From assembly GCA_009761415.1 (NCBI GenBank), contig QUOL01000013.1:858501-922500 (forward strand): 64,000 nt of DNA, read 5' to 3'. Shown in pieces: positions 5,616 through 63,689 of this stretch. Source of the DNA: Sarcomyxa edulis (Eukaryota > Basidiomycota > Agaricomycetes > Agaricales > Mycenaceae). The notes beneath the pieces were generated by a model. The model had not been told where the DNA came from. It worked only from the letters and a program-made list of their open reading frames with translations, and ran no database searches. The number at the start of each line of letters is the position of its first letter. Positions within the stretch are counted from its first letter, which is position 1. The position numbers and the translations under genes were made by a program.

Positions 5616-8143
5616 TTATTTGTACTGCCCACGGCTTCGTCTGCGTCCGTCATCCAACTCCATCTTCCCAATGATCTCTTCAGATCCCTGGCTGACCCCT
5701 TCGCTCACGTTCGTGCTTGTGGATCCATGTCGAGGGCGTCCACCGAAAGGGCTACCTCGTCCTCGGGCATAATCTCGATCTCTGTCTCTCGTGCCTCCCA
5801 TCGATATCCCTAAGCCCTCCAGACCATTCGAGGACTCCCTCCTTAAGACAGTCCCTCCACCTCTGCCTGATCGTGTGCTCTCATTATTATCCTCGCCTAC
5901 GCCTCGTTGCCGATCCCGATCCCTTGACCTGGCACTACCCTCTGCCTGACCCGCGGCCCCACCTCCTCCTAGACCCTCCAGACTCGCCAAGAACGCTTCA
6001 TTCATCATACGTAGTCGTTCATCAACCTCTGATTCGCTAGTCAACATCGGTCCCTGGGGCGAGCTTCCAATAACAGGCCTATTCACCGCGTCCCCACCAC
6101 GTTGTTGTTCTTCCGGTCTGTCGGCTTCAACTTTACCTTCTCCGCTCGTCGTATCTCGATCATGTGAAAGACCATGCCCTTCATCCCGTATACGCTGTTG
6201 TCCACTCAACGGCTTCCTTGAATCGATGTCTTGTACGAAGGCTGAAATATCATCATCGTCCGTATTGTTGCTGAGGAATGACGCACTCTAAAAGGATTCA
6301 CAAGGGAAGGGGTGTCAGAATAGATATTTAACAATGTCAAGCCACATGAATCAAAAAAGGAGGAACACGACAAAGAGCACAGATTGTTCATGCAAGACCT
6401 CAAGTCGCGGAAAATGTCGATAACTCCGTACGTAGGGAAGAAAGCAATGACGGATAATATCGATGACTTACTCCCACTCGTTCGCCGTCTCTGCGCTCTC
6501 CGCTGCCGGCACTGCCATCGCTGCCTGCGCCCCCAGTAGCAGCGTATCGATGGCCGAAACTGCTGGAATAACGCTTGCGGACTGGGACTGGAGCTTGAGA
6601 CCGGGACGGGTCATCGCCATCCCCGCCACCTGCTGGAGATCGTCTCTCACCTAAACTGGAGGGTGGAAACGGTGGGGATGGCCTATTTCCAATACCAATC
6701 GGGGAAGGAGGGACTCGGGAAGATGTCGGCGAAGTCTGCAACGGTCGCGATGGCAAACCCACTGTTGCGAGAGGAGAAGCTTGCCGTAAGGATGGTGAAG
6801 GCGAGTGATGAGAGGTGGCTGAGCCAGAGGAAAGAGTTGACGATTTAAAGGGATGAACTGGGTTTATACTTGGTCGACGAATAGGCAATGGTGATGGTGC
6901 AGATGGTAGATCTGCCCCTCGACCGGATCCAGTGCTTTCTTTCCTGAGACGAGCTGCTAGACCAGAAGGTGGACGCATGTCATCCCTAGACAACCCAGAA
7001 ATACTATCCTGCCGAGAGTGCGAGCTCGTGGATATTCCAGAGGCAGAGCCTCCTCCAGTGGCAGCAGCACTGGATGTATAGCGACTGATCGGTAGTGGGA
7101 CATTCCGGGGACTCACTCCCACGCCTGAGGAAGGACGAGATGGCAAGATGAATCTGTCGGCTACGGACGAAGGGGGCGACTTGGGGAGGGACGTCCGAAT
7201 AGGAAGGCTGCCTGGAGAACCGGAAATAGAGTCCCTCTGTTGATTCTTTGCTAACGTAGGCATGAACTCGGGGCCTTCGTCCAGAGACAAGAACCGGGAG
7301 GACAAGAGAGACTCCAGCTCGTCCAACTGGAAATTGGGCGAGGTCAAATATGTCGTGGAGAGTGAGAGTGTGCCCATTGGATGGGGGACGGACGGAAATT
7401 CATGAGACTGGGTTGGAAGTGGTGGTATATTAGCGGACGGAGGGGCATCTGGGTGGGCAGTGTTCAGCATGTCTCGTATGATATGAAAGAACGTGACTCA
7501 CCGAAACCCAAAATAGTGCTGGAATCATCGAGGGAATTAGAGCCTCGGACCCTTAACTGCACACTGAGGTTTCCGTTCTTCGCAACGCCAGTACGCCTAC
7601 GTAAGCGTTTGTATAGTTTCCAGGCAGGCAGTATTCGCAAGAAACTGAACAGGCTTCTGAATAAAGGTATACCATGCTTGTAGATGGTAGGAGGAGCGAC
7701 ATCGACACCGTCTTCTTCGTCAATATCACGAGGAGTAAAGGAAAGAACCCAACTCTCGAGCACGATGTGTCTTGGGGTAGGTTCTATACGAACGCGAGAT
7801 GAATCTGGAGAGAGGTATACAAGGACCTGGTTATTGGTCAACTCGGGTATCGATAATAGGACTTGGATTTCGAGAGGGGGTGGAGGAGGATACGTGGATA
7901 TGAACCTATACTTGTCGCGTACGTCTTTCGTGAACAAGTCAGAGTCGGGAGTCTCGAGGTTGAACTAGGGGGCATATCTGAGTAGCCGCGCTAAATAGAC
8001 GCTGGTAGACGTTCACTCACCCATTTGTCGGTCTTGGGCTGAACCCTGGGCTCTGTAGTAGCCCTAGCATGATTGACGACATAAAATAGTTTGGTGTAGA
8101 AATGGAAAGCTATCTGGTCGGCCTTCTGGGTTTCATTGGACAT
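5616..8143 (-). CDS. ATG13: Autophagy protein Atg13 (HORMA domain plus disordered tail)
   Basis: Atg13 is the regulatory partner of Atg1 kinase in the autophagy initiation complex. Exon 1 (8143-8021) encodes MSNETQKADQIAFHFYTKLF and the rest of the first HORMA helix. Exon 2 (7964-7502) carries PPPPPLEIQVLLSIPELTNN, LESWVLSFTPRDI, YKHGIPLFRSLFSFLRILPA and LSVQLRVRG. Exon 3 begins at 7448 (DAPPSANIPPLPTQSHEF) and runs into a long Ser/Pro-rich tail. The last exon reads SASFLSNNTDDDDISAFVQD then IDSRKPL, the usual Atg13 C-terminal acidic motif, followed by Arg/Gly/Asp-rich sequence to the stop at 5616. Length is about 740 residues. Introns follow the exon-1 Trp codon and split the codon before DAPPS; both positions recur in the chimeric paralogue at 24.1 kb. 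The 190-bp gap before the last exon may hide one more small exon. Confidence 0.9.
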
Positions 8144-10130
8144 TGGTGCCAGTGGTGAGGTTGTGGGGGTCGTATGAGGGTCGGAATTAGGCCTTGGAAA
8201 GCATTAGAATAAGAATCTAGAAGAGATATATGAAAACAACGAGGAGAAGTAGGTATAGTCTGTAGGCAGTGGTCCACAAGGGAACCGCGACAGACAAGCA
8301 GTGAAGGCTATTGCCAATTCCGTTTCCCCCTCGAGGCCCAGAGATCGACTCAACTTGTCAAAACATCCTTCTTCCCATCACTTTCAGTCACTTTGAATCA
8401 AAACATAGCCTCCATAACATCGTATACAGCTTAGGTCAACGAAAGTACAACTTGCAGTCGACAACCTCTCGTACAACCTTGATTTCGCAATTGTTCGTTC
8501 CTCACCGAGTTTCTGCACCAGAATCCTCGTCTTCGGGCTTGACTAGCTCGACTACCGCAACGTCTACGTAATCTAGCCTGAAGCTTTCCATTCGTGTCCT
8601 TGCGGATACCCAATGGAAGGAGCCCGTTCTTATCTAGCAAGTTCTAGGATAGACGAAGAATTCCTATTCGCGGTATGTGCAGCATTCCTTACATCTTCAT
8701 TCATGCTCTTTACACGGTAATTAAAAAGTCTCTGACAGTGATTGCCCCCGATAGCTACTTTTCATGAGCTCGTCGATCGTTTAGCCGCTGGCGTGAATGG
8801 CATCACTACTCTGAAGCCTTTTCACAAGGCATGCCAAAGTCTAAGCATCTGCCTAGACCCGGGTCTAAAACCCGAATCGATATAGGCAAGATAAGGCTGC
8901 TACAAGGCGAGGAGTGAGCGTGCTGATGCCACCAATTGTGCATAAGGCGTGTCAAGAACGAAATTGTGAGCACCGTGACTGCAGTCTCGATATATCAACG
9001 CCTCTTAATTACGCCTTTAGCGCTCTAGCATGTGATTCATCTTAGGATGATCCTGCAATATGAATACCATCCCAGAATAATTTCACTCAAAGTCCACTCG
9101 AATTCGCTCCGAGGCTTTTCGAGATAACTCGACGCTATTGGCTGATTATGTTGGCCTTGTTTGTTTCCAAAGCCTATTGTGTTATTTATAGATCGAGGTT
9201 GGGCTCGCAAACTCTCAAAGATGCCTGTCGAGATGAGACTTTCTGGATGTATTCTGGTATCTCAACCTCACCGGCGCCTTCGAACGTTACACCGCGGACA
9301 CGGCTCGAAAGCAGTTTCACCTCAATAACTCCGGTTCCCCTTGCGTTCCCCACGCTACTTATTGTCGCTATTTCTTATGGCTACTTCCGCAAGCTCCGCT
9401 CACATAATCGTTGAGCTTTTGCAAGTGAGCGCTGGATGTATAGATGTTCTCCAACGAGAGGATATGCTGCAGACACTGAACAAGGCAGGCTTCTCACATG
9501 TCCATATCTCCATATAGACAATCTGAGCGCTTGATTCTCTCAGAGTTCATTCCTCCGTGCGACACCACCATATACGATATCTGCGAACTGCATATCAGGT
9601 GCATTGCATGTAACGAGGTGCGTAACCTCTTCCTATAAAACATGCAACGCGCTGAAATCTTGGCGTTCCCCTCTAGGTCCGTGGAAGCGGACCCTTATTG
9701 GGCTTTTCAACAAATACAATGTCAAGTTAGTTGATGCAGAAGCTTGGTAAGACACGTCAAGATATTGTGAACGTGCGTAGAGTATGACACTGTCTATCGA
9801 CCTCTGCAATATTCTATGATACCAGTCTACGATCTTTAAACAACTTTCGGACGGTCAGAAACTCGAAGTCAGGTTCGCGGTATTGTATGGAGCTAAAGTT
9901 GACGACAAACACATAACCGTCGGATGCGGTTGGTCAAGTTGGGATGCTTATGTACTTACATGGCAAGTACATATCACCAGGGTACATAGGTGTTTGTAAA
10001 TCTTCTCAGTAAAAGTAGTAGATAACCGATCACGTACACATCAACTATGAGTCGACCACTTCAAAATTCAGAGAAGCCTTCTTCCTGCGAGAACGTGCTC
10101 TGAAAATGAACCCTAGATGATTCAAGGTGC
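8144..10130. other. Long intergenic region, no gene recognised
   Basis: No frame on either strand links into a recognisable protein. The longest open stretches (8311-8571 +, 9148-9414 +, 8431-8640 -) have neither family resemblance nor extendable splice structure. Local structure includes a 14-bp perfect palindrome TAGACCCGGGTCTA near 8854 and a 9-bp inverted repeat TATGTACTT/AAGTACATA near 9948. The left end should hold the ATG13 promoter. Confidence 0.45.
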
Positions 10131-13100
10131 CTAAGAGGCGGAGAAGGGCATCGGAAGAGATATGCGGTCAAGGTATGGAACAAGGCGACGGACGCCATGA
10201 GGTAATAAATTCGTTTCCATCGTGTTGACCCAGTGTTCTTCAATGACGGGAGTGGGCGGAGAGATCATGTACAGAGCGTAGTTCGGAGTATCGGACAAAT
10301 CGAGTTCTTCAATGCAAAGACAGACTTCGACGAGTCTGGGATTGAAGAATTGTTTGTTCCATATTTCGATTGTTTGAGAGCTGCGTTCGATGTCGTCAGG
10401 GGACCCATTGTTGTAGCTGAATGTTGTATTCTGAGAGAGTGGTGAGTTGGAGAATGATGGATGAAGGACTGAGAGAAAGAGGCTACATACTGAGATGAAG
10501 AGGTCCCAATCATCGAGGTTCACGTCGTGTTCGGTAAGAACGGTGGGTACGCTATTTTGTGTGCCAACCAAGTCAGCTAAATCACTCATTTTCTGAGGTC
10601 CAAACGGTTGGTGTCGGGCGGTCGGATCGACTGGACGTCGAAATGAAGGGACATAACGGTTTATCGAATGCGGCCGTCTACTTTGAACATAGGGATATTC
10701 CTGCTGCGGAGAGCTACTAGGAGGTAGATATGTATAGGCGTCTTCGCGAGGATGTTCGTTAATTGGATGTTGGAACGGAGTATACTGGAATGGCAGTCCA
10801 TAAGAGCGTCCTCCCCCGCCCTCTTTAGCCCACCCTACGACTTTCTGTCTCCAGGCGTTGTCCATGCTTTCACCGTAACGCCCAAATGTATTGGCGATGA
10901 GGAGGAAATAGACTACGCCGAGTGCGAATACGGCTGTGACGGCGATTCGGGGACCGAGAATTGCGTGTGGAGTCAGGAGGATCGGATCAGACACATCCGT
11001 CGTAGAGCCACTGCGCCACACGTATGCGAGAATACAAGTTATGAATAAAATTATTGACCTGATATAGAGACAGTGAGAAATATCGAATTGCGGTGGGATG
11101 ACTGGGAACAAACCAGGCGAGCCATATAGCAGGCATGGCAAGTAAGACCCAAATATTCCACCAGAAGAACGTTTTTGTTTTTTGAGCCTCCTGATAGATA
11201 ATCAATCCAACCGCTAATATATATTGAGAATATAAACCCACTTCAGCCCAACTTGCAGCCTTGTACATTTTCTTCATAGATCCGAACCGAATGATGTAGA
11301 TGCAACCGTACAAAAGACTCATCAAGGCGCATATGAGCGACAGAAGAGCTGCGTATTTCGGCACTGGATCGGTCCCTGCACCATCGATTTGCAACATCGT
11401 TAAGATAGCTCTATTTATGGAACAGGACATCAGTTATGGTATTCGGTATACGAGAAACTAACCGGGCGTCAGGCACTCACGACAGCAACAAAACAGATAC
11501 CACATTCAGAGTCTTCCACTCTCTCATTAGGGAGTCCACGAACGTCTCCCACGACCGTTTGAAATCAATGAGGTTCGGTGACATTGTATAACTCTGTTCA
11601 AACATTGTTTGCATCATCATGGGTGCTGGTCCTTTCTCATTCCCTTTCCACTGATCTGCAGTAGCAATGGCCATCTTTTTGATGTCAGGAAGTATCAACT
11701 CTGCGTCCTCAAATATCCGCGATACGCGGTTGAAGTAGAGAGAAGGTAGGCGCAGAAGGAAGTGCAAGTAGAGTTGACGAGGAGCAGTGTCGATGAAGAA
11801 AGTATAGATAGCTATGAGGAAGATGCCGATTTTCCCTCTGATACTGGAAGAGGAAGCAATTTGGCATGATAGGGGAAGGCATAAGAAGCCGCAATCAAAC
11901 GCTTCCTCGTCTTGAGGAGGAGGAGGAGGGATGAATGGTCCGTCATAGTACACTGGGCCCGGATGAACAACATATGGACTACCTTGTTGATACTGCATCC
12001 CGGGCATGTATTGTGATACTGGTGGTATCGGACTTGCTTGAGAGTAAGTATTATCGAGATAAGGACGGAAGCTCTGGGACTGAAGTGGGCGCAATGAAGC
12101 CTCGAAGGGATTCACAGTGGCATATGACACAGGCGGGACTCTTTCGTCTATTTCCTGCATGCTGGGATAGTATATAGGCTCTTCGCCCTGCGGATGCGGG
12201 GGTGGAATGACCGGAGTGGGTCCTGTTTGATGCTGAGGTATTACGTATACTCCGGGTATGGTAGGTAGAGGATGCCTAGCAGGAGGGTAGTCAACGATAT
12301 GTGTCGGTGATCCAGCGTTCGAGTCGTCTTCATCTGACTGTGATCGTCGACGAGGGCGTCGTGCACGCGGCTCCATGATGTATTCATGATCTTCGGAAGG
12401 AGGTGGTACCACGGTAGGTACCGCCGGTTCGTATGGTAATGTTGGTGGTATCGGAATTGTTTGGGGATGGGTATACCGGGGAGAAGGGCGAAAGTTTTGG
12501 GACAGACGTGAGCGCGGTGAAGCCTCGAAGGGGTTCACAGTGGTATATGCCACAGGCGGAACTCTTTCGTCTATTTCCTGCATGCTGGAATAGTACCAAG
12601 GCTCTTCGTTCTGCGGACGCAGATGTGGGACTGCCAGAGTAGGTCTGGATTGATATTGAGGTCCTACGTATACTCCGGGTATTGTAGGTGGGGAAGGTCT
12701 AGGAGGAGGGGGAACAACGATATGTGCCGACTCCGCACTCGATTCGTCTTGATCTGACTGTGATCGCCGTGTATCAGCATATCGTCTACGAGGGCGTCGT
12801 GCGCGCGTCTCCGTGTTGTCTTCCTCCTCGGGGAGAGGAAGTATTATAGGAGGTACTGCCAATTCCTCTACACGAGGATACGGCCGGATAGAACGTCGGA
12901 AACGCGGAATTGGAGGGTGGTCAACTTGGGGACAATTTGGTATGGCAGGCACTTCCGCTTCGTCTGTGCTACTATTAGTGTCGCATATTCTTCTTTGAAG
13001 ATGGATACCCACTCCGTATAGTTATCCTGTTGACTTCGTCTTTTAACTCGTCGAGGCGTGCCACAACACTCTGATATTCTGCTCTGCGGTCAGCAGAATC

Positions 13101-14317
13101 GCGTTCTAGCCACTCATTGAGACCCCGGAGGTACTGTAGAAGCTCCCGTTGTTGGTCTTGGTTTGTCTGGTCTAAATCAGATACCATTGAACTCGATCAG
13201 TGTGGTGGGACGTACATGGAGAAGTTGTTCACTGGAGACGTCCGTCTGGTGCTGATGTTCGTAAGAAAGAACACAATGACAACAAAATGCCGAGGACCTA
13301 CATAAGGCCGTGAGGCGGGCAGGGCTATCTGCTCTGCGCTGGGAAGAACGTGTCCGTAACTTGCCTCTGGCTCTACATTGTAGCCAGTGTAATGAGAAAG
13401 TGGAGGGATCGTGGGGAGCGGGTTACTCATTGTATCGCGTTCGTTGTTGGGTCGAGCTGTGGGCTGAATGGGAGGGAGCACAGTAGGGATGACTGAAATG
13501 TTGTGGTCACTCTCCTCGTAGAAACTTGAAACACGAGACTTATGAGCCTGGATTTCGATACTAGGAGAAGTACGGCTGAACGACTCGGTCACGGTGTCGA
13601 CTCTTGGGCATTCATAATCAGTGACTCCATTACCACTCCGAGCAAGTGGGACGTCAGCGTTTGTCGTGACAGTGGGAAGCAGGGCCTCAATGTGTGTGCC
13701 AAGTTGGTCGATGGGAGCACCAACATGAGTCCTGGAGCGTGCTTCATGTTCGAGCCTTTCGGGCAGATCACCTAAATTTTCAGGATAATGCATCACGTCT
13801 TGTTGAGCGGTCACTTGAGTAGGTCCCATTTGCAGAACCTCAATTCTGTTGGCTCCAGGATTAGATTCTACAGAGTTGTCAACGCGTCCAGGTGGATGAG
13901 TAGCTCCTACATAAATATATGTCAGTCGTGTGGAGTCGAAGGAAACGTCGTGGACCAGGAACAAAATTTTGTAGTCTGCTCTCTGATAAATCGCAGACGG
14001 AGAAGTATCCAACAATTTCCCCTGCAGTCCGCTTCGCCAGTAAGTTAAGTACTAAACTGGAGACCGGACTTCTTTCCACTATTCACCCCAGTAGCAAGAC
14101 GTCATAGACGCTCATGCACTCATGGACGGCGTCGAGGACTAGTATCTCACAAATCCATCATTTGACGACCTGGCACCGCATTGATGATAATGGCATGATC
14201 AAAACCGATGCCTCGCTCACCTGGAATGAATGACAACACTGGGCCTTGAAGCTCAGCTTCTGGGCTTCCTCGACGGTTTTCTGGTGACTCGGACAGAATG
14301 CCACTAGGTGAAGACAT
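10131..14317 (-). CDS. Proline-rich, coiled-coil, multi-pass membrane protein of unknown function (copy A)
   Basis: Exon 1 encodes MSSPSGILSESPENRRGSPE and splices in phase 1 to GATHPPGRVDNSVESNPGA. Further on come charged coiled-coil repeats (LRGLNEWLERDSADRRAEYQ, VARLDELKDEVNRI), then a long Pro/Arg/Ser-rich region, then a membrane domain (IASSSSIRGKIGIFLIAIYT; ILTMLQIDGAGTDPVPKYAA; SLICALMSLLYGCIYIIRFG; WWNIWVLLAMPAIWLAWFV; ILGPRIAVTAVFALGVVYFL) and a cytosolic tail (EVCLCIEELD). I know this layout only as a family common in Agaricomycetes with no assigned function. A paralogue lies at 58.2-62.1 kb on the same strand. Compared with it, copy A has a net 5-base loss just before the C-terminus, which shifts frame into an early stop (PMPFSAS*); the old C-terminal codons (LESSRVHF) remain readable in another frame downstream. 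Confidence 0.75.
11940..12830 (-). repeat. Two tandem ~423-bp coding repeats in the proline-rich region of copy A
   Basis: The segment with MQEIDERVPPV, TVNPFEAS, RRPRRR.QSD, IPGVYV and PQ occurs twice in a row (EASLRP.. and EASPRS.. centred near 12.1 and 12.5 kb), spaced about 423 bp, that is 141 residues. The paralogue at 58.2-62.1 kb has one unit only, so either copy A gained a unit or copy B lost one. Confidence 0.7.
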
Positions 14318-15833
14318 GATAGCACTCTTCGTCGTCGATGTGTCGTAAATCTTTCGAAAAAAATATGGATCGAGCGCTTCATGTTATCGATGACACTGCC
14401 TTGAACTCTCTGACAAGACCGTGCCTGCAAGTTAGCGCTAGAGAATCCATACTAGTCGGAGATGCGAGAGAGCCCTAGAGAGCCTCGATACGATTGAGAT
14501 TGTAGAAGACTGTCTCCAGCGCGTGACCGACACCACCGACGCGTTGACTAGAATTACACTGACAACATCTCTGAGATCCACTCTCGAGCTCTCAAATTCC
14601 CCAACCTATACGATTATATAGAATCTACGCTCGGGTACTAGCCCTATGTATCACGACCCGCGTCATAGCGATTGCATTGCATTAGGACATAAAGAATATG
14701 AGGAGTGCATAGTAGAAGAAAGGGTAAAGCAAAAAATCGTACAAGTAAGTAAGCGAGTAAAATGGATCCCTAATTAATATGTAAGACTGTGGGATGTGGA
14801 ATGTGGGATGTGAGAGGGGAGGTGGGGATTGGGGGGAGATGAGATGAGGATGGCGATGTGTGTGGAAGCTGAATATTGAATTGGAACCAAAGAAATAGAA
14901 AGAAATTGGCGTTTGTAAGAAAGAAAGAAAAAACGAGCGTGTGTGTGGAACGAGTTGTCGAGAATAGATGAATGGAATAGTGTAAGATTTGATCAATAAT
15001 ATGCAGCGATACCAGCGGGAGAAGAGGAATTGAGGACAGCTTATAGTTGTGCGCGACGATGATGATGATGAGAGAGAAGAGCGACAGAGAGAGAGAGAGA
15101 GAAGTATGCAGGAGAACAGAGAAAACGACAACACGGAGAACGACAATTAAAGATGGAAACGAAAGGGGAAAGGGGTGGGACGGATAGACATATAATCAGT
15201 AAGAATGGAAGAAAGGTGGTCGGAGGAGGAGGAGAACGAGGAGGAAAGAAGAATAGAAGAAACGGTACTATAAAACGACTGGGCGAGATGAATTAAATAT
15301 AATCTTCGCAAGTCCTTTCACCTCGCAGAAGTAAGTATATACGAGATGCTATACTCGCCATCTAAGATGTCAAAAAAAGCACGATTTTTTTCTCTTTTTA
15401 CGTTCGGTTTCGTTTTCGCCAAAGGGTTGACAGTTGTGAGCCGACAAAAGGTGATACAACAGTGCGCCACGATAAGGGGGGACACCATTCCCACAGACGG
15501 AGAGCAACAAAACAACCTATGGGAGATGAAACGAATGGGCGTTGAGATGAAATGAGTGTCTTAGTCTAGTCAAATGTTGAGATGAGATGATAAAGAGAGG
15601 GAGAGAGAGAGAGAAACATTCCAAAGTGGATAGATATAAATAACGAATTGACATGGATGGAACGGAACGCACCCTGATTCTTTCTTCTTCCATCCTTCCA
15701 TCCTTCCAACTTCCAACTCCAACCCGACTTCCACACCTCCCTGTCGATCCAACACCAGTACTTGCCAAGTGACCCAGATGTCTGAAACAGTCCTCCCAAC
15801 AGCAGAAGAACCTCCATCGACACTGACATCAGA
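14318..15833. other. Intergenic region with purine-rich low complexity
   Basis: From about 14.68 to 15.30 kb the + strand is strongly purine-rich, with a (GA)n run near 15085-15101 and GAA/GGA tracts; open frames on the complement here are Ser/Leu-rich artefacts of that bias. No gene recognised. The left end should contain the promoter of the membrane protein gene and the right end the 3' UTR of spg1. Confidence 0.5.
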
Positions 15834-23749: not shown

Positions 23750-24055
23750 CCGTGATGATCAAACATTAGTACGAACGTTTCCTTCAAATCTGTGTCTTAC
23801 ACTAACAATATCGCTATTCTTATCCTCTAGTACCAGCACTTCCATTTCACCAGGCATCCATTCGATTAGGTTGTGTCTATGCATGTGTATCTATATATCA
23901 TTAACAACGCCGCCTTCTACTCCTTCCCATCAAGCCACGATTTTTCCACGTTGCGTACGCGCTGATCGACACCGCCCTGTATATATATATATCTCGTATG
24001 TGGGTTCGAAGACGCATCAACAGCTCTGTTCCGACCTCCATACGACCCGAGAGCA

Positions 24056-27000
24056 ATGTCCATCTTGACTGAGACAGAGAGGGTTGACCGCATAGTTTTC
24101 CATCTCTGCACCAAATTGTGTTCTGTCGTTAACCAAGCCAGAGCCACTCCAGAGCCCGAGGCTCAGCCCAAGATTGATCAGTGGGTGAGCATCTATGCCG
24201 GGCGTTCAAGAGAATTCAACGGATACTCAAATTTATTTTCTAGTTCAAGCTTGACACTCCCGTTTCTGAAGTTCTCAAAAAACCTGTACGCAATAAATAT
24301 CGTTCTATATCCAAGTATCCTGCTCCACCTCCTCTCGAAATTCAAGTCCTATTATCGATACCCGAGTTGACAAACAACCAGGTCCTTGTATACCTCGCGC
24401 CAGATTCATCTCGTGTTCTTCTAGAACCTTCCCCAAACCATATCTTGCTTGAGAGTTGGGTCCTTTCCTTCACCCCTCGTTATCCTGAAAGTTCGGACGG
24501 CGTCGAGGTCGCTTCTTCAACCCTGTACAAGCATGGTATGCTTTTGTTCAGAAGCCTGTTCAGCCTCTTGCGAATATTGCCGGCCTGGAAGCTTTGCACG
24601 CGCTTTCGTAGGCGTACCAGCGTTGCGACGAATAAGAACTTCAGTCTTCAATTGAGAATCCGGGGTTCCAAAACTACCGACGATATATTGTCTTTCGGTA
24701 AGAGGTGTCTATCTGGTATCCTGATGGTGCAATACCTAAATAACACGCACCCAGATACTCCTCCATCCACTGATTTGCCACCATTTTCAAGTCAAATTCA
24801 CGACTTTCCTTCCATCTCTTACCCAACGGGTATACTCTCGCTTTCAGTGACCTACTCGACCTCTCCTAATTTTCAATTGGACGAGCGGGATTTTCTTTTG
24901 TCTTCTCGATTCCTACCTCTGGATGGAGCTGTCGATTTTGTGCCTACATTGACACGGGGACGGATCTCGGACTTGCTGCCAATACCTATTCCTCGACCAA
25001 AGACCACTGATCCAGACAATCCTTTGGCCTCAAAACTTGAGAACACCTTGGTATGTGGTCCCTTTCAATGAGCTTGACCTAAATCTGACGATGACGACGG
25101 CTCCTTTGATTCAAGGCTCATGCTCACGTAGGCAATGAGAACAGCTCCTGTAATATGACCCCCATCGAAAATCATAATGGCAATTCAAAATCGTTGATGG
25201 AAGATCGCACCAATAGTATAGATCAATTCGAGGCCAACGTGGATCCGATGGATCTGCTTGAAGCTTTGTCAAATTCGCGAATTGATATCTCACCTTGGAA
25301 ATCTCCTGAAGCGTGGCTGAAGAGTCATCGTGACGAACTTTTTCATCTTGTGTACGGTGCCATTCTGGATACAGGAGACAGACAGATCTGCGAGATCTTC
25401 CTCATGGCCGGCACTGTATATCAGGTGAGCCGAAGTCAGCTTTGTCCATTGTTCGACACACTTATTCGTCATCATTTCTGCGTAGCGTTCTGCCATATAT
25501 ACTTACTGGCGATTGAAAACACGGGTAGAGGATCCAGGGTAAGCTTGTACATTCATCTTCCGGAGGGAGGACCACTATCTGAACGCCTTATACGTCAAGT
25601 CATCTCATAAACTTCAGGAGGAAACTCGAGACTTGGAGTATCCGAGAGAACTCAATCATGAACAGCCTTTTAGATTACCGACTTATGGGTGATGAGCTCA
25701 GAGGCTTTCTGCGACCCAAGGGTCTTGCGGAGGTACCGTCATTGAATTTGATTGTTTGCGCCTGACGGAAAATTGATGCTTATTTCAGGAAGCTTCTTCC
25801 ACATGGTCTTGTGAAGACGACCCGATTTTCAAGCACGTGTTGGAGTTGGACATAATCTCTATGTGTGTGCAATTGCGTTGCATCTTATTCGCTTCTAAGA
25901 CGCATCGAGAGTTCCTTGCCTGGAGAGGGACCGAAGCTCAAACACTGTTGAATCTTGTCCAATTGGCATGTACATTCACCCAATTTTTCCAGAGAAGTAG
26001 ACTCATTGTTTAGTGACCTGCCAGATTTTGGACTTTCCTCCTTTAGACAAGTCATTCAGAGGCCCATTTGTACATGCCCTTCTTACACTGTCTCGCAAGT
26101 CTGGACTCTATCCGGAATGTCTCGTTCTGCGAGATATTCACAGAATTGGCGAAGATCCAGTAGCCGCCGGCAGATACGGTGAAGTATGGAGAGGAAGAAG
26201 TGGAGACCAACAGGTTGCTATCAAAGTGCTGCGCCTATACGAGAGGACAGATATACAAAAGCATCTAAAGGTCTTCCGTAGCCTCCCCTTTGTCTCTGCG
26301 TGGAATGCTGAATCACTACATAGGCTTTTTCTCGCGAAGCCATACTCTGGAAACAAATGGATCACGTCAATATCCTATGCTTGCACGGCATCTATCATCT
26401 CAACGAAAACCGCTTGCGAGTTTGTCTAGTCTCCCCCTGGATGGCGAACGGTAACATCAGACAATATCTGCACAACAACCCGCTCGTCGATCGGCTTCCT
26501 CTGGTCAGTGTTTTGGTTTGAGACCACCCAGAAGTTTTGACTGATATCATTGTGACCAGATCTCAGATGTTGCTGTAGGACTCGAATATTTACACGCCAA
26601 TAAAATTGTTCATGGTGATCTGAAAGGGGTGAGTGGCATGTCTATCGATATCATGTAACTTAAGTTCATGCTCCTGTAATAGATGAACATTCTTGTCAAC
26701 CCTTCGCACAGAGCTTGCTTAGCAGACTTCGGACTCTCTAGCGCTTCAGATTCCCAAGCCTTGAAGATATCTTCAGTATCCACCACGCCTGCAGGAGGAA
26801 CTCTGCGGTGGCAAGCCCCTGAACTATTTGATGACACTCAGAAACGTGCAACGTTTCAGACTGACATATACGCTTATGGATGTGTGTGCTATGAGGTATG
26901 AACTGAACTTTCTTGTGGAAGCGTATAGAAACTGATCAGGAGCATCGAGATCTTCGCCGACAACATCCCTTTTCACGAGATAGCGAATGACTATGCCGTC

Positions 27001-27225
27001 ACACTTCGAGTCATGCAGGGAAAGAGACCATTGCGTCCCTCGCCCGCTCGAGACCTGGATGATGAGATATGGTCTCTCGTGCAGGAATGTTGGAATCAGG
27101 CCTACAGCCAACGCCCAGCTGCGCGGCAGATAGTCCAGAGACTGTGGTCCAAATTAGACTTCCCACAGCGCGATATGCGGCCACTCACGGACCCATTGCC
27201 TACCATACCGTATAGATTTCTATGA
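24056..27225 (+). CDS. Chimeric protein: Atg13-type HORMA domain fused to a tyrosine-kinase-like protein kinase
   Basis: Twelve exons read open to one stop (24056-24184, 24244-24697, 24755-25050, 25116-25424, 25486-25538, 25618-25732, 25789-25969, 26014-26270, 26324-26503, 26560-26628, 26683-26895, 26950-27225), about 843 residues. Residues ~1-245 match the HORMA part of the Atg13 at 5.6-8.1 kb (LEIQVLLSIPELTNNQVLVY, LESWVLSFTPRY, YKHGMLLFRSLFSLLRILPA, VTYSTSPNFQLDE), with the same two intron positions; the Atg13 tail is absent. Residues ~290-550 are unrecognised apart from a REFLAWRGTEAQTLLNLVQ block often seen before agaric kinases. The kinase (~555-820) has AAGRYGEVWRG, VAIK, SREA, VHGDLKGMNILV, ADFG, GGTLRWQAPELF and CWNQAYSQRPAARQIV, so all catalytic residues are present. 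The GT-AG joins at 25050/25116 and 25969/26014 are the ones that hold the fusion together; both are in phase. Two adjacent genes remain possible but need a missed stop or start. Confidence 0.72.
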
Positions 27226-28770: not shown

Positions 28771-29286
28771 CGTTACAGCGAACCCACCAGACGCTGACTT
28801 GACTGCCTGATGTTGTAGATTGAGATGCCTGGTGCCACAGAATTATTCCTGATAACGATGAATTGATTGCAAAGGAATCGGTACAAATTCAATCTTGTAG
28901 TAGATGTAAAGAATGTGCATGCGCCTACGGGAGACCGTAATTACTTCCACGGCCGTGAAGCTTTCGTCCTTGGACCTCAAGCTCTGCATCAGTCGCGGAT
29001 TCGGAATCCATGACCAAGAAGATATCGAGATCGTCGTTTGGGAAGCCTAAGCTGACTATAGAGTGGGATAACGCTGGAGAGTAGGGCCTGACTATCCTCG
29101 TAGTCTACAATGTACATAGTACGAATCTTCGTCAGTTTTGGCGCGTCGAGCGGAGTCTGAACTACTCAATCTCCGCACATGTTGGGTTGCATGGGCCCCC
29201 GCTTCTGATTGGGTAAAGTCTTCTTCATGATCTTACAAGTTCGATGCCTTCATCATCGCTCCTCCGCCACAGATGAAGCGCAAAAG

Positions 29287-29294
29287 TATATAAA
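29287..29294 (+). promoter_or_regulatory. TATA box 14 bp before the first ATG of the hemerythrin-like gene
   Basis: TATATAAA ends 13 bases before the ATG at 29308. A TATA box normally directs transcription to begin about 30 bp downstream, which would put the mRNA start inside the first 30 codons and make the ATG at 29407 the first usable one. Confidence 0.5.
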
Positions 29295-29307
29295 CCCCTA
29301 AGACGAC

Positions 29308-30185
29308 ATGTTTCTCCGAACGTTCATCTCACGAACATCCCCCCGGTCATTCCCCTCACCAACATCCGTCTACGCCACAAAAATATCCAGGAATTATCAA
29401 CGAGCAATGTCTACCACGCACAAAACTCTCACCGAAGCCATCAAGGAAGATCATCAAGAGGTTTGGAACAAAAAAAAATTTGACCAGAGTGGCATTTTTC
29501 GACTGAACTCATGCGTATTTAGATGTACGACTACCACGACCAGTATATCAAAGCCATCGGAAATACCGACGCACAAGAACGCTGGGCTCGTCAGCTGACC
29601 TGGGAGATCGCGAGACATGCAGTGGGTGAGGAGATCGTCGTGTACCCACTCATGGAGAAGCATTTGGGGGAGAAGGGTGTCGAGCAAGCGGATCATGACC
29701 GTGCGGAACATCAAGTATGTGGTACCGTCGAAAATATCAGTTCTTTATGTCAGGTCACTCATGCGTGCCATAAGATGTGAAAAACATGCTCTACGAGCTC
29801 GAATCGCTGACCCCTGGGACGACTGAGTATCACGAGAAGATCACGAAAATCATGGAGCACCTGCACCACCACAACGATGAGGAGGAGAATGAAGATCTCC
29901 CATTATTGGAACCTGCTATCGGAGCGGATGGAAGTAAAGAAGCAGCCGCGCAATTCAAGAGGACCAAGAAATTTGTGCCGACACGGTGAGGCTCCGTTTA
30001 AAAACCGCATATATATACATAATTGATGTTTTATCTCTAGGGCTCACCCTTCTGCTCCGAACCAGCCCCCGTTCGAGACGTTCGTGGGTTTCCTCGCTGC
30101 ACCGCTTGACAAAGACGTGTTCGCAAAATTCCCGACCGAGGAGATGAAAGAAGAGATGAAAGAGGATATCGATGCGAAAAATTAG
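29308..30185 (+). CDS. Hemerythrin-like (HHE cation-binding) protein
   Basis: The four-helix HHE fold is expected to bind iron through His, Glu and Asp. Visible candidates are EDHQE (exon 1), YDYHDQY, ARHAVGEEIVVYPLMEKHL, DHDRAEHQ and MEHLHHHNDEEENEDLPLLE. The tail reads AHPSAPNQPPFETFVGFLAA and EEMKEEMKEDIDAKN*. From the ATG at 29308 the N-terminus is Arg/Ser-rich without acids (MFLRTFISRTSPRSFPSP), like a mitochondrial presequence; from the ATG at 29407 it is MSTTHKTLTEAIKEDHQE with no presequence. The first intron starts 29461 and ends at 29521. The exon 2/3 join near 29714-29777 is not clean: the obvious GTATGT donor gives a stop, whereas a GTGGTA donor four bases later keeps frame. A partial inverted paralogue lies at 63.8-64.0 kb. 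Confidence 0.82.
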
Positions 30186-30310
30186 TTTCGATGTCCATGA
30201 CCTATCCGCAGCTGTAATTGTAGTCTTACTGTACAAGTGCCCAAGAATGATAATGCCTCCGAGGTCGCGTTCGATGACATCAGTTTCTGGACGCGTCTCG
30301 ATCACGTGCC
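30030..30310 (+). repeat. Left arm of an inverted duplication (last exon of the hemerythrin gene plus 3' flank)
   Basis: The sequence from the last exon (AHPSAPNQ..) through about 120 bp of 3' flank, including a block around ATAATGCCTCCGAGGTC and ACGCGTCTCGATCACGTG, recurs in reverse complement at about 63690-63965. Identity is high but not complete; the right copy has two extra codons (DKLKDV against DKDV). Confidence 0.85.
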
Positions 30311-31027
30311 ATTTATTTGTTATCGGGCACGAGTGCTCCCGAAGACAGCGAAGCGGCCTTCACAAGATGAGATGAGTAAGACCACGACTGTATCATATGT
30401 ATTTTTCAAGTTGACAAGAGAAACATCGCACTACATATATCCTGACACGGGCACAAAAAACGGTTCACCAAGAGGAAGAAAAGGAAAAGGGGAAAGGGGA
30501 AGGGGGATGAGAAAGGGACCCCAGCAAGGGAGGGATAAGAAAGAAGAACAAGAACAAGAACAAGTAAGGGATAAAAGATGAAAGCTGAAGAAAGAATGAA
30601 TGAGAAGGATGAAGGAGGGGAAGTAATGTACGACAAATGACGGGGAGGAAGCCTAGGAGGAAGAGGTACAACCAATACTAGATACAACAACACCTATATG
30701 ATGGGGGAGTATCATGATCAAGGATGTTCGTGCCGCACAAATACGCATACAATACAGGAATGGAACAATTTAAGGGGAGAATATAAGGTGTGAGGGGCAA
30801 GGTGTAAAGTTGAAGTGGCTAGCAAATATAGATGAGGAACGATGAATAAAAAAAAGGCTCTTTGGAAGATAGACGATAGCGATTCAGGACATGTTTTATA
30901 TGGCTTGGATCGGATGATTGGAGAATCGAATCCATCCATCCTATCCGTGGGTCTGCGGCGTTGACAATGTGCGAGTGAGTGGGACGGGACAGCTACGTAA
31001 TTTCATGATCGATTTGTTTATATAGAA
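30311..31027. other. Intergenic region with purine-rich low complexity
   Basis: From about 30460 to 30660 the + strand is a run of A/G-rich sequence (AAGGGGAAAGGGG type, then GAACAAGAACAAG repeats). No gene recognised. The right end holds the 3' UTR of the HMGN-like gene. Confidence 0.5.
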
Positions 31028-36062: not shown

Positions 36063-36486
36063 AGGTAGAAGGAAGAGGAGAGAAGGAGGAGCGCCCAGAA
36101 AGGCCTTGCAAAGAGAGTGAGGTGTTAATGTCAATGTTTAATGTTAGTGTTAATGCCAGAAAGGCAAGCTCGCCTATCCCCAAGGTGAACCCTCGTAATT
36201 CAAATAGTGTAAGACCCTGGAAAAAAAACATGCCCACCCGATCGTTTCATGACAAGGCTCAATTCGACATGTTCTGCTGCTGGCTGGCTTTGCAGTATGC
36301 TGCGAGCAGGTTTTAACGCGTAGTGTATGCATTAACCGACAGAAATACGTTCGAAGACTGGCAATAATTGTGAGGATCGAAGCATGGATTCTTCACGATC
36401 GCGTCGAAGCCATATGAGGAGATGCCGAGTCTGGATGCCGAACAGATGCCAAGCACGTTTTATGTGGCTGTGCAACCATACTCAAG

Positions 36487-37930
36487 ATGTTCTTTGATCT
36501 GAACGTACCAATCTCGACATTTATCCCCACAAATCCTACCCAATCCCAGTCGAAAAAAGGTAAAGGAAAGCAAACTCAAGCACCCAATGTCGTATCGTAC
36601 ACCCCAGCACAGATTAACGCCATCGAGGCACGTGTAACGCTGCTCGTTCACCGTAAGTTCCACCATTACATCTATTTACACGTTACTTTCCTATCAAATA
36701 CCACAGTGGGATACACGATAATTGCTTTCAACCAAACTGTCCACAAGAAAATCGATCCAAAGACGCACATCAACGTCCTCGATGGCTTACTTCTCCAATT
36801 GAAGAAACGACCTGGTATCGCGTTTCTCAAACGCTTGACGATCATTCTAGACCAAGACAGCGAGAAAGGTTTCGGTCTTGTAAGTTGGAGTCCTCACATC
36901 CTCTCTCCACTTATTCATCCATCGGTTCTTCTTTGCAGACAAACGCCAACGCGCCCTTTCTAAATCCATACGACCTCATCGCTCTCACACCAACGACAGC
37001 CGCCACCTTCTCTCTCGCATGTCTAACCCACAGCCTCCCATCACCACTGACAGCCCACATAATAGCCCTCCCCTTGACCTGCCCCCGACTTCCTTACCAC
37101 CTAAAACACACCCTCATCCGCACCGCCATCAAAAACGGCGCGGTCTTCGAAATCAACTACGTCGGTGCCCTTGGTGGGGAGAACGAAGAGATTCTCGTCG
37201 AGGCAGATGCGGCGGAGAACGGGCCTAGTGCTAAGCGCAATTGGTGGGCGGCAGGGAGAGAACTGACGCGTGTGACGAAAGGGAAGGGACTCATTGTCAG
37301 TGGTGGCGTTGTTGCAGAAGCGGATCTTAGGGCACCGAGAGATGTAGGGAATCTGTGAGTTACCTTACTAGTACTATCCTTGGAGATATGAGATACTGAA
37401 CAGGCATCACAGCATAGCATTACTCGGCCTAGCGCAAGATGCTGCTCATGCATCGTCTACGAAGACGCCGAAATCCCTCGTGCTTCGTGCTCGTACGTAG
37501 TCGCGGCTTGTATTTCCTCCTCCATGCTCATCATAGCAACGTTCCAGAAACACGAAAAACATTCCGCGCAGTACTCTCAGAACCACGGATCGTCATTCCT
37601 GAATCGACATCTCCTCCTGACGCTGCGGCCGCGGAATCTACTCTCCAGAAATCAAATTCTACCCCCGAATCAACGGAACCAGGAACTGCTCCACCAACCA
37701 GGACGGAAGATCCACTTCCCACCGCTGGACAATCCACAGCTACACTTCCATCGCCTGCTTCCGCTACTAAAAAACGTCCGCGCGACGACGAGAATGAGAA
37801 CGACGCCGTAGACGGAGCTGGAGTTGAGGGTGGAGATAAGGATTTGCCTACAGCTGTGCAAAGGAAGGAGGTCGGTGAGAAGGAGAAGGAAAAGGTACCG
37901 CGTAAGAAGAAGAGAAGGAACAATAAATAG
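36487..37930 (+). CDS. RPP1: RNase P/MRP subunit p30, Rpp1 (copy A)
   Basis: Protein subunit of nuclear RNase P and RNase MRP (tRNA and rRNA processing). The start MFFDLNVPISTFIPTNPTQS leads into the family's PHP-like TIM barrel: LGYTIIAFNQTVHKKI, RLTIILDQDSEKGFGL, NPYDLIALTPTTAATFSLAC, FEINYVGALGG and KGLIVSGGVVAEADLRAPRD. After two more splices comes a disordered tail (KKRPRDDENENDAVDG, ending KVPRKKKRRNNK). Five exons: LLVH|LGYT (phase 1), FGL|TNANA (phase 0), the split Leu codon after DVGN, and LVLRART|NVPETRKTF all restore frame. The gene is intact and about 97% identical to the copy at 51.2 kb. RPP1 is normally single-copy and essential, so two intact copies are unusual. Confidence 0.9.
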
Positions 37931-38566
37931 GGATGGAAGGTCAAGTCTCTTTTACAAGTCACCATTCTACCTGTATCCATATCCATGCTTCAACTCACCC
38001 TATCGCTCTCGAGTCGACTACTTTTGTACACCAAGAACCCTTTGCAGTTGCAGCAAACATAATCCAAGAGAGATATTGATAAAGATGCATGATCAGAATT
38101 ACAACAAACATCGCGTATATATGTACTGGTGTAGTATGTATGTTATGTTATGTATGTAAATTGGTATTCCGGAAGCTGGCGATGGGTGGCTTGGTGGGGT
38201 GAGATATGGGGATGCAATGGGACGAGAGAACGGAGGCAGACGAGAGGAGGGAGAGAAGGGGAGAAGGGGGAAAGAAAATCATTACGCCGTCATTATACAT
38301 ACATAGAATGGCCAATCCGTTCAGGATGGGGACATCGCTAGTAGTGAAATTTAAGGATATAGTCGTGATGCAAGCTGGAGTCACAGAGAGACAGAAACAA
38401 TGGTAGAAATCAAGAAAAGAGGTGAACGCTGAGTGTTCAATTCACATCTGGTGAAAGCACGGTATCTCCCACCAAAGACACGAATAAACCCCCCCAAGAA
38501 CGGAACGATAACAAGCCCCTATGTTTGGAGATTCAAATCAAGACGTGTGTCTGTGAAAGAGAAGAA
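37931..38566. other. Spacer between convergent RPP1 and DMA1 remnant
   Basis: Part of the duplicated block, with a purine-rich stretch near 38220-38280. Contains the 3' ends of the flanking genes; no exon recognised. Confidence 0.5.
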
Positions 38567-39317
38567 TCAAGATTGCATCTCCACAGCTCGTTTCCGCTTC
38601 TCACCCACTGCTCCTGCTCCGACCCCCGAAGCTGTTCCAACCGCTGTATCTATCAACATGTCGGTGGCGACGGGGACCAGTTCCTCCGGACTGCCTGTAG
38701 CACTTCGACTGCCACTCACACTACGATCTGTTCGAGCGATAAGTGAGTGAATGAATGAATGCGAAGGTAACAGCACACACCATCATGAGCAGGAGGAGGG
38801 GTAGGAGCAGGTACATGACCCAGCGCCGCATCTACAAACATGAGATCCTCATCCCCATCTACATCCCCATCACCCGAGCCTTCTTCACCGTCTGTATCAG
38901 GCTCCCTCAAATCAATCAAAGGACCGAGGTTCAGACTTTCCCTCGTACGATGATTTCTTCCAACCAAAGCCGCCGAACGTGACCCGGAAGCACCAGCACC
39001 TGCATCCTCGACGTCCGTCTCAGCCCCTCGGTCCCGATCTACAGGTGGTAACGGTTTATCCGCGCACACCCCTACAACGCCCTCCATACCTTCCACACCT
39101 TCCATCCCATCCACCTCTGCCTCTACTTCTTCTGATGCGACCGACTCCAACTCGGCTTCAATCTCTACATCCTCCTCGAGGTCGGCAAACGTCCTGCAGA
39201 GGGGGCATGTGAAGGCGGGGTGATGTGCGTCGAGGAGGGGCCGGATGCATTTGTAGTGGAATGCGTGGGAGCAGGGGGCGACGAAGAGGGCTTGACGGAT
39301 TGTTACGCTGAATAGAC
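38567..39317 (-). pseudogene. DMA1: Truncated DMA1 copy: C-terminal RING half only
   Basis: Matches the last two exons of the complete DMA1 at 53.2-55.0 kb: the RING exon (VTIRQALFVAPCSHAFHYKC, then AFTCPLCRTFADLEEDVEIE) and the acidic tail ending KRKRAVEMQS*. The exon with the first RING cysteines (PDCCIC) and the whole FHA exon are gone. Sequence at 39336-39350 joins GTGGTGT from the intron (53972 in copy B) directly to GTGGTGTCGCTGCGA found beyond the gene's start in copy B (55141-55155). So about 1.17 kb was lost between two GTGGTGT words. The remaining frame is still open, but without a promoter, start or complete RING it should not make a working ligase. Confidence 0.85.
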
Positions 39318-39689
39318 CTGTTCGTGGTAGTTAAAGTGGTGTCGCTGCGAACTCGTCTTGACGTTGGCTTCAAATTCGTTAGGATTAGGTGCTGGATTGT
39401 TCAACTTGAAGCTTAAGTACTTACTGGCTCACTAGCTTGGCATCTGCTATGCGAGATACACAAACAGGTGCAAATAAAAAAAAAGCTGCATCTACAAAAC
39501 GGACTGTCGGCTAGTTTCAAAATTTCAGGGTTTCCCCCTCCCGAGGGTTCTCTATGTGGCTACGGTGCGGCAGGGCATGTCCTTGAGAGGAAATAACTTT
39601 AGCATGAAACCTACGGACAACACAAAGAGACCGACCGTCGACTCCGAGACTAAGGGAACACGGCTATAAATTTAATCAGATTGATTCAT
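39318..39689. other. Junction region between duplication and tandem array
   Basis: No similarity to copy B after 39350 and no gene seen. Begins the gene-poor island. Confidence 0.45.
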
Positions 39690-58191: not shown

Positions 58192-61100
58192 TTATTCCTG
58201 CGACAGCGCGGTCCGGAAATGAACCCTAGATGATTCAGAGTGCCTTGGAGGAGGTGGGGAAGGGGGCATTGGAGGAGCGTGGCGGTCAAGGTATGGAACA
58301 AGGCGACGGACAGCATGAGGTAATAAATCTCTGTCCATCGTGTTAACCCAGTGTTCTTCGTTGAAAGGACTGGGCGGCGATATCATGTACAGAGCATGGT
58401 TTGGAGTGTCGGACGAGTCGAGTTCTTCGATGCAAAGGGAGATCTCAACCAGCCGGGGAACGAAGAATTGTTTGTTCCATGTTTCAATTATTTCAGAGGT
58501 GCGTTCGATGTCGTTCGGTGAACCTCTATTGTAGCTGGATCTTATATCCTGATGGAGTGATAAGGTTGAAAAGTGATGAAGGACTAAAAAAGACGACATA
58601 CCGAGATGAAGAACTCCCAATCATCGGAGTTCACATCGTGCCCCATAAGGACACTGGGTACATCATAACTGGCTCGTATGTCAAGCAAGTCGGTCAAATT
58701 ATATAGTTTTTCGGGTCCAAACGGTCGGTGTCGAGCGGTCGGATCGACTGGGCGTTGAAATGAAGGGGCATAAAGGTTTCGTGAGAGTGATCGTCTACGT
58801 TGAACATAAGGAGATTCCTGCTGTAGAGTACTACCAGGAGGTCTTGGTGAGTAGACACGTCCGTGATGTTGATGTTCGTTAGTTGGACGTTGTGATCGAG
58901 GATCGTAATAATTTGACGACGGTCCAGGTAGAGTACTACTAGGAGGTCTTGGTGAGTAGACACGTCCGTGATGTTGATTTTCGTTAGTTGGACGTTGTGA
59001 TCGAGGATCATAATAATTTGACGACGGTCCAGGATTAGTTCTTGTACGATTTTGATATGAGCGTCCGCCTCCGCCCTCTTTAGCCCATCCCACGACTTTC
59101 TGTCTCCAGGCATTGTCCATACTCTCACCGTAGTGGCCAAAGGTATTGGCTATGAGGAGGAAATAGACTACGCCGAGTGCGAATACGGCTGTGACGGCGA
59201 TTCGTGGACCGAGGATTGCGTTTGGGGAGAGGAGGATAGGATCAGAGGCATCCGTCGTGGAGCCACTGCGCCACACGTAGGTGAGAATACAGGTTATGAA
59301 TAATATTATTGACCTGATATAGGGACGGTGAGAAATATTTGATTACCGCAAGACTGAATGTAGACGGACCAGGCGAGCCATACAGCTGGCATTGCGAGCA
59401 AGACCCATACATTCCACCATAACAATGTTTTTGTTTTTTGAGCCTCCTAAAAGATCATTGATTCGGGTAGCATTCGAAATTTAGGAACATGAACCCACCT
59501 CGGCCCAACTCGCAGCCTTGTACATTTTTTTCATGGATCCGAAGCGGATGATATAAATGCAGCCGTACAGAAGACTCATCAACGCGCAAATAAGCGATAA
59601 AAGGGCTGCGTATTTCGGTACTGGGTCAGTCCCTGCACCATCGATTTGTAACATCGTCAAGATGGCCCTGTATAGACAAACGTGAAATAAGATGAAGATC
59701 TTCTGTCACCGAGATCAAAGGAACGACAGACACTCACGACAGCAACAAGACAGAAACCACATTCGAAGTTTTCCACTCTCTCATCAACGAGTCCACGAAT
59801 GTCTCCCAAGACCGTTTGAAATCAATAAGGTTCGGTGACATCGCATAATTTTGTTCGGACATCATCATCATATGGGCCGGCCCTTTCTCATTTCCTTTCC
59901 ATTGATCTGCAGTAGCAATGGCCATCTTTTTTATGTCAGGGAGTATCAACTCTGCGTCCTCAAATATGCGTGATACGCGATTGAAGTAGAGAGAAGGTAG
60001 GCGCAGAAGGAAGTGCAAGTAGAGTTGACGAGGAGCAGTGTCGATGAAGAAAGTATAGATAGCTATGAGGAAGATGCCGATTTTCCCTCTGATACTGGAA
60101 GAGGAAGCAATTTGGCATGATAGGGGAAGGCATAAGAAGCCGCAATCAAACGCTTCCTCGTCTTGAGGAGGGAGAGGAGGGATGAATGGTCCGTCATAGT
60201 ACACTGGGCCCGGATGAACAACATATGAGCTACCTCGTCGATGCCGTAGATCAGGCATTCCGGGCATGTATGGTGGTACTGGTGGTAAAGGGCTCGTTTG
60301 AGGGTAGGTGTAATAGGGAGAAGGGCGGAAACTCTGGGACCGTGACGGACGTGGGCGCAATGAAGCCTCGAAGGGGTTCACAGTGGCATATGACACAGGT
60401 GGGACTCTTTCGTCTATTTCCTGCATGCTGGAATAATGCGGAGGCTCTTCGCTGTGCGGACGAGGTGGGACTACCAGAGTAGGTCCTGATTGATACTGAG
60501 GTCCTACATATACTGCGGGAATGATAGGTGGAGAAGGCCTTTCAGGAGGAGGGATAACGATATGTGTCGGTGAATTAGCACTTGATTCGTCTTCGTCTGA
60601 TTGTGATCGTCGTGTATGAGCGTATCGTCGACGAGGTCGTCGTGCACGCGTCTCCGTGTATTCATCCTCAGGAGGAGGTGATCTCAAAGGAGATAATGCT
60701 GTCTCCTCTGTGTTAGGGTATGGCCGAGGTGAGCGTCGAAAAGGCGGAGTCAAAGGGCGTTCATCTTCGGGAGTATTTGGTATCACAGGTACTTCCGTTT
60801 CGTCTATGCTACTATTAGTGTTATGTAAGACCCTTCGAGGATGGGTACTTACTCCGCATGTTTATTCTGTTCACTTCGTTTCTTAGCTCATCGAGGCGTG
60901 CGACAAGGTCTTGAGAATCTGTTCTGCGGTCAGCAGAATCGCGTTCTAGCCACTGATTCAGTCCCCGGAGGTACCGTAGAAGCTCCTGCTGCTGCTCTTG
61001 ATTTGCCTGGTTCACGTCAAGTGTCATGAATGAGCTCAGACAGAGTAGTGGGACGTACATGGAGAAGTTGTTCGATGGAGGCATGCGTCTGGGGCTGACG

Positions 61101-63674: not shown

Positions 63675-63689
63675 GATGACAGGCAAAAG

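Follow-up and report, generated by a model that had tools for sequence, protein, structure and literature searches.

The locus described here raises the question of whether the N-terminal half of an autophagy regulator has been joined, within one gene, to a protein kinase, and what such a chimera might do. Atg13 normally recruits a separate kinase, and it is the motifs of its C-terminal tail that recruit Atg1 and Atg17. The window analysed is a stretch of 64,000 nucleotides from Sarcomyxa edulis (contig QUOL01000013.1, positions 858,501 to 922,500 of the forward strand), and positions below are those of the window unless another contig is named.

The gene and its predicted product

Between 24056 and 27225, on the forward strand, an exon model made from the sequence gives 12 exons and 11 GT-AG introns that keep a single 843-codon frame up to a TGA at 27223-27225, with frames and splice sites intact throughout, as a preliminary description of this DNA had proposed (twelve exons, one frame of about 843 codons). 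The predicted protein of 843 aa has the order Atg13 HORMA, linker, helical domain, TKL kinase. In a single Pfam scan PF10033 (ATG13) matched aa 18-234 with 144.3 bits against a curated cut-off of 25, covering positions 5-233 of the 233 in the profile, and PF07714 matched aa 562-817 with 151.7 bits; both matches are far above chance level. The HORMA half (aa 1-293) is encoded by exons 24056-24184, 24244-24697 and 24755-25050. The linker and most of the N-terminal helical domain, delimited from the exon table, from protein matches and from the DNA similarity to a paralogous kinase that begins at 25238, occupy exons 25116-25424, 25486-25538, 25618-25732 and 25789-25969, and the end of the helical domain together with the RAF-like kinase domain occupies exons 26014-26270, 26324-26503, 26560-26628, 26683-26895 and 26950-27225. 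Pattern searches of the kinase recovered GRYGEV, HGDLKGMN, DFG and APE, and VAIK can be read off the predicted protein, which completes the set of catalytic motifs (G-loop, VAIK, HGDLK..N, DFG and APE) listed earlier. Judged from its sequence and exon model, 24056-27225 is a chimeric gene; we infer from it a joint HORMA-kinase transcript, the binding partners and the output of the kinase.

Origin and constraint of the HORMA half

The HORMA half has its source close by. PF10033 matches at two sites in the 35.6 Mb genome (40 contigs; E up to 0.001), and both lie in the window: one in the fusion and the other in a complete ATG13 gene on the reverse strand (5616-8143), recognised by its PF10033 match, by alignment and by its tail patterns. 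The two copies show 72.7% DNA identity over 902 columns with introns counted, the introns themselves aligning at about 63%, and both introns of the HORMA half stand at positions identical to those in ATG13. Upstream, a 20-nt leader (24029-24048) corresponds to ATG13 8186-8167 on the reverse strand; this blastn match, at 90% identity, has an E value of only 0.059 and is collinear with the main match. Over the HORMA domain the two proteins agree at 159 of 234 aligned residues. From these alignments the HORMA half is best described as the 5' half of ATG13, comprising leader, HORMA domain and two introns, copied locally, and the earlier proposal of a DNA-level copy of a neighbour, which had rested on the two shared intron positions, is borne out.

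The window holds other duplications. A 3 kb repeat joins 36333-39342 to 51015-53978 (94% identity), and 10079-14322 and 58192-62058 are paralogous stretches with similar open frames and, in pieces, 68-83% DNA identity. Inverted matches at 28814-29061 and 30039-30314 against 62742-62492 and 63965-63686 (72% and 88% identity) suggest a further local duplication between 28814-30314 and 62492-63965.

The copy has changed rapidly. In a HORMA tree of 50 rows (two from the window, three fusion proteins and 45 ATG13-type proteins picked from listed matches) its end branch measures 0.61 against 0.097 for the parent ATG13, and among columns conserved in 40 ATG13s the copy is changed at 16 of 74, its own ATG13 at 2 of 75, so that binding by the HORMA copy may be lost. 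Comparison with ATG13 gave dS 0.69, dN 0.19 and a ratio of 0.28, which is pairwise and averages copy and parent, so that the ratio of the copy itself must be higher. When neutral decay was simulated, 3 of 2000 HORMA copies were stop-free at half the observed dS; at 0.2 changes per site the figure was 32, and at 0.1 it was 194, again out of 2000. The HORMA copy thus looks fast-evolving yet maintained by selection. A decaying pseudogene was rejected on the intact frames and splice sites, the pairwise dN/dS values of 0.28 for this half and 0.124 for the kinase half (against its nearest paralogue), and the 3 stop-free copies in 2000. A split of the copy inside the pair formed by the window ATG13 and Infundibulicybe, and one just outside it, are both compatible with the topology tests (p 0.28).

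What the copy lacks is the tail. The ATG13 gene carries the conserved tail motifs DDDDISAFVQDIDSRKPL and LTSESEVDERL..., whereas beyond its HORMA domain the fusion matches the kinase model, at aa 562-817, where ATG13 has its tail. A search of aa 1-396 of the fusion for the FV.DI and DDD tail patterns found neither, and within that pattern-searched part the fusion does not have the C-terminal tail with conserved motifs that marks a functional Atg13. The earlier statement that a kinase has replaced the tail stands as regards the motifs present in ATG13 and the position of the kinase; as regards the absence of tail patterns it extends to aa 1-396 only.

One protein or two

The question of whether the two halves form one protein or belong to two genes rests wholly on a predicted, near-consensus 65-nt intron at 25051-25115 (GTATGT...CTGAC...TTCAAG, forward strand), which would join the HORMA half to the kinase half. 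Across 24991-25157 it is the sole consensus pair that leaves the frame open, although its acceptor, AAG, is not of the best type. The likelihood of such a join by chance was gauged from 3000 dinucleotide shuffles of 25021-25157 in which open in-frame joins were counted. Any GT-AG pair sufficed in 33% of shuffles; a GTRNG donor with an HAG acceptor was found in 2.2%, GTRNG with a CTRAY branch site in 0.73%, GTRNGT in 0.4%, and GTRNGT with a branch site, as in the predicted intron, in 0.13%. A chance join is not favoured, at 0.13% for the strictest consensus and 0.4-2.2% for the laxer ones; 33% applies where any GT-AG is admitted.

The principal alternative is that of two adjacent genes, a HORMA-only Atg13 paralogue followed by a standalone kinase. 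Left unspliced, the HORMA frame stops at 25069-25071, and in-frame ATGs follow at 25155-25157, 25197 and 25248, each a possible kinase-only start in agreement with the practice of the family: from these positions the DISPW motif would fall at residue 44, 30 or 13; three short relatives that match the pattern have its start at residue 13, 23 and 36. The start of DNA similarity to the paralogous kinase at 25238, within the kinase half, and the frequency with which a lax GT-AG join arises in shuffled sequence, are likewise what two genes would predict. Against this, a terminator and a promoter would have little space in the 83 nt that separate the stop from the first ATG, a consensus join is found in just 0.13-2.2% of shuffles depending on strictness, and the sister kinase described below is itself a captured-segment fusion in one frame. 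On balance the two-gene arrangement is rather unlikely, and a single predicted protein was judged to be about three times likelier than two.

The kinase half and its relatives

The earlier assignment of the kinase to the TKL type agrees with what was found: PF07714 outscores PF00069, and by sequence comparison the best matches among solved structures are B-Raf and RAF. Atg1/ULK kinases carry C-terminal Atg1-type MIT domains, and no such domain was among the six families found in a Pfam scan of the fusion (E up to 1). A protein search with the whole fusion gave 817 matches, and the family figures given here are those of the best 120. A precomputed kinase domain is present in 118 of these 120 listed relatives, mostly from Agaricomycetes; the catalytic loop is of the HGD type only (non-RD) in 104, shows other letters or a mixture in 7, and is unmatched by the motif in 9, two of the latter being ATG13s without a kinase. 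By these sequence criteria the fusion kinase is a member of a large agaricomycete family of HGD-type (non-RD) TKL kinases. Relatives such as P0031 start at the same N-terminal helical domain as the kinase half of the fusion. This helical domain has no Pfam family above cut-off, and a structure model of P0031, helical domain and kinase together, reached a mean pLDDT of 81; in fold searches with the model kinases dominated, with MLKL (4btf) at rank 16 over 444 columns and an rmsd of 15.3.

Twenty relatives with another precomputed domain were scanned, eighteen of them from the listed 120 of 817 matches and two, P0142 and P0149, from a second search, of which the best 120 of 327 matches were listed. 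The extra domain, in some cases near or below cut-off, lay before the kinase in 12 and after it in 7, and was unrecovered in one (P0149). That such domains turn up before as well as after the kinase points to a contribution from merged gene models, and the survey is for that reason not used as support for a general promiscuity of the family.

The nearest paralogue of the fused kinase in this genome is L043, on the reverse strand of contig C34 (1116280-1119046), in which the kinase exons match and 244 of 325 residues are identical. This sister kinase carries an N-terminal extension of its own. A genome search with the extension found one other site, C34:1560954-1561103 (54% identity, E 1.8e-5), which lies in a gene at about C34:1560089-1563062 (L058); we regard this gene as an ataxin-2/Pbp1 homologue because it has an LsmAD match (57.6 bits) and an ataxin-2 SM match below cut-off. 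The similarity of extension and homologue is collinear (FIQPIPPFK..., PNPFFGT.PI...DDFNPFK), and at the DNA level two short stretches match at 85-90%. Their local alignment scores 150, where the best of 1000 shuffles reached 86; with the part from PNPFF to DDFNPFK removed it scores 78 and the best shuffle 73. A query cut before DDFNPFK retrieved only self-matches in a genome search with E up to 10, so that the 54% segment and the L043/L058 alignments carry most of the case for ataxin-2. The ataxin-2-derived segment shares a stop-free frame with the N-terminal domain of the kinase, so that here a captured-segment fusion is visible free of any splice assumption. The two sister kinases thus carry different captured host segments, and, the nearest paralogue having an ataxin-2 piece, the pattern is wider than ATG13; there are hints that TKL kinases of this kind acquire fragments of other proteins of the same cell, to serve as baits or for attachment. 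Neither the sister extension nor ataxin-2 is similar to the linker of the fusion (about aa 259-337): 755 and 540 of 1000 shuffles, respectively, score equally well. In the same genome five further close relatives (L044-L048) have, by eye, ordinary short starts and no captured piece. Upstream of some of them there are, also by eye, what look like separate genes.

Predicted HORMA-kinase proteins in other genomes

The preliminary description had counted it against the fusion if no other genome showed the two domains linked, and one other genome does show them so. Among the best 120 of the 817 matches PF10033 and a kinase occur together in two database proteins only, P0025 from Phlebia brevispora and P0058 from Suillus lakei; P0025 has both domains, and P0058 is doubtful. 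Of two further protein searches, one contributed the best 120 of 327 matches and the other all of its 91, and since the 91 include neither P0025 nor P0058, absence from these lists says little. A full-length orthologue of the fusion was found neither among the listed 120 of 817 nor among the 91.

P0025 (NM688_g6322, 814 aa) consists of an ATG13 HORMA domain, a linker and a TKL-type kinase. Its HORMA domain groups with Irpex ATG13 (support 95/83) on a branch of 0.86, against 0.17 for Irpex ATG13, and a tree in which the HORMA copies of P0025 and of the fusion are held together is rejected (AU p 0.0005). A single ancient HORMA-kinase gene held in common with Phlebia was accordingly discarded, and the pairing probably arose twice, provided the P0025 gene model is right; P0025 lies on a contig of 8.2 kb, and its model may have merged two genes. 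P0058 was considered as a third case and set aside: its HORMA branch is 0.25 against 0.22 for Suillus ATG13, its N-terminus, inspected by eye, resembles a mitochondrial ribosomal protein, and it is likely a merged model. P0302 from Galerina marginata (1021 aa) is a second ATG13-type protein beside P0266 and evolves fast (branch 0.99); its C-terminal region looks, by eye, different from the tails of ATG13s, and Pfam finds HORMA alone in it.

What the chimera may do

The explanation that we favour as a whole, with somewhat more confidence than doubt, is that of a chimeric gene with a single 843-aa product in which the HORMA copy tethers the kinase to autophagy initiation. The 5' half of ATG13 would have been copied locally, landing in front of a TKL kinase from the HGD-type (non-RD) family of agaricomycetes, and the junction intron would splice both halves into one protein. 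If the HORMA copy retains part of the Atg13 binding surface (for Atg101 and the Atg9 tail), the kinase would thereby, with no need of Atg1, be placed at the autophagy-initiation complex or made responsive to it. The choice of partner would lie with the captured N-terminal segment and the output with the kinase, and the sister kinase with its ataxin-2 segment would follow the same mode with a different partner. Profile searches found matches to ATG101, ATG1 (MIT domain) and ATG9 in the genome, the only PF12063 (ATG1 MIT) match being on another contig. In humans the HORMA domains of ATG13 and ATG101 jointly form a groove for the ATG9A tail (PMC9931213). Rewired autophagy, as originally suggested, would be one of several readings, and the binding of Atg9 or Atg14 suggested with it would likewise be hypothetical.

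A more specific form of this explanation, and a bold one argued by analogy, is that of an immune-type integrated decoy: the HORMA copy or the ataxin-2 piece would mimic a host protein that a parasite, mycovirus or rival attacks, and the kinase would be activated once the bait is interfered with. The pairing of a kinase with a copy of a host protein is found in both sisters, as an ATG13 copy (by the predicted join) and as an ataxin-2 piece. The captured copies are fast (0.61 where the parent has 0.097, and 0.86 in Phlebia where Irpex ATG13 has 0.17), but relaxed constraint also gives fast evolution, and the pairwise dN/dS of 0.28 does not exceed 1. Loops of the HGD type only, seen in 104 of the best 120 of 817 relatives, fit as well, in that non-RD loops correlate with immune kinases (PMC4295470), and plant kinase fusions supply a model with proposed integrated decoys (PMC10260397). 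A protein from Trametes cubensis (P0286, 506 aa), in which an ATG13 HORMA domain is followed by a HET domain, would be a suggestive parallel; however, in the tree it sits close beside the ordinary ATG13 of Trametes (branch 0.14), seems to translate intron 1 and may be a wrong gene model. A HET family profile search of the S. edulis genome gave no match, and control searches were equally without a match. We consider the decoy reading unlikely on present evidence. Marginally more doubtful still is its generalisation, an uncharacterised class of cytoplasmic immune-type receptors in mushroom-forming fungi in which non-RD TKL kinases would repeatedly capture core regulators (ATG13 HORMA, ataxin-2) as baits. 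Ataxin-2/Pbp1 regulates TORC1 and stress granules, and if the generalisation were true an attack on autophagy or on the stress-granule/TORC1 machinery would trigger the kinase that carries the corresponding bait.

It is also conceivable, and could overlap with the tethered-kinase explanation, that the fusion is an Atg13 antagonist, the copy competing for Atg101 and Atg9 and so lowering autophagy initiation with a minor role for the kinase. The replacement of the ATG13 tail by a kinase, next to a HORMA domain that fits positions 5-233 of the 233-position Pfam model, would suit such a competitor, but the catalytic motifs of the kinase are intact and its sequence is under constraint, and a pure competitor needs no kinase; we hold this to be quite improbable.

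Comparison with known systems

Literature searches (by title, with subscription papers mostly outside their coverage) found no description of an Atg13-kinase fusion. What is new would be the partner domain of this chimeric kinase, with a hint of a wider habit of capture. Were it confirmed, a covalently attached, unrelated kinase would be a natural tool for separating the functions of the HORMA domain from the recruitment of Atg1; two sister kinases with different host segments, together with a case in a second fungal order, would open up the unexplained expansion of TKL kinases in mushrooms; and the fusion and its sister would make the decoy hypothesis testable in fungi.

The fusion resembles Atg13 itself in its HORMA domain, copied from the neighbouring ATG13 with the same introns, and differs in having a TKL kinase instead of the disordered tail and an end branch about six times longer. 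An expansion of TKL kinases has been reported for Laccaria bicolor (PMC2838846), and the window kinase conforms to it in that its listed relatives, 118 of 120 with a kinase domain among 817 matches, are mostly agaricomycete; the N-terminal ATG13 HORMA domain sets the fusion apart. The FslK lineage of fungal kinases, which stands close to the tyrosine kinases and is expanded in Agaricomycetes (PMC3937382), shares that expansion with the family of the window kinase. The Phlebia protein has the same layout of HORMA, linker and TKL-type kinase, but its HORMA domain was derived within the Polyporales and not by common descent, and its loop, HGDLRGAK, is without the usual Asn. Finally, among the kinase fusion proteins of the Triticeae (Sr43), for which integrated decoys are proposed and resistance has been shown genetically (PMC10260397), a kinase is likewise joined to an unrelated domain; those are plant proteins whose decoy role is itself a proposal, whereas for the fusion described here a role in resistance would be hypothetical.
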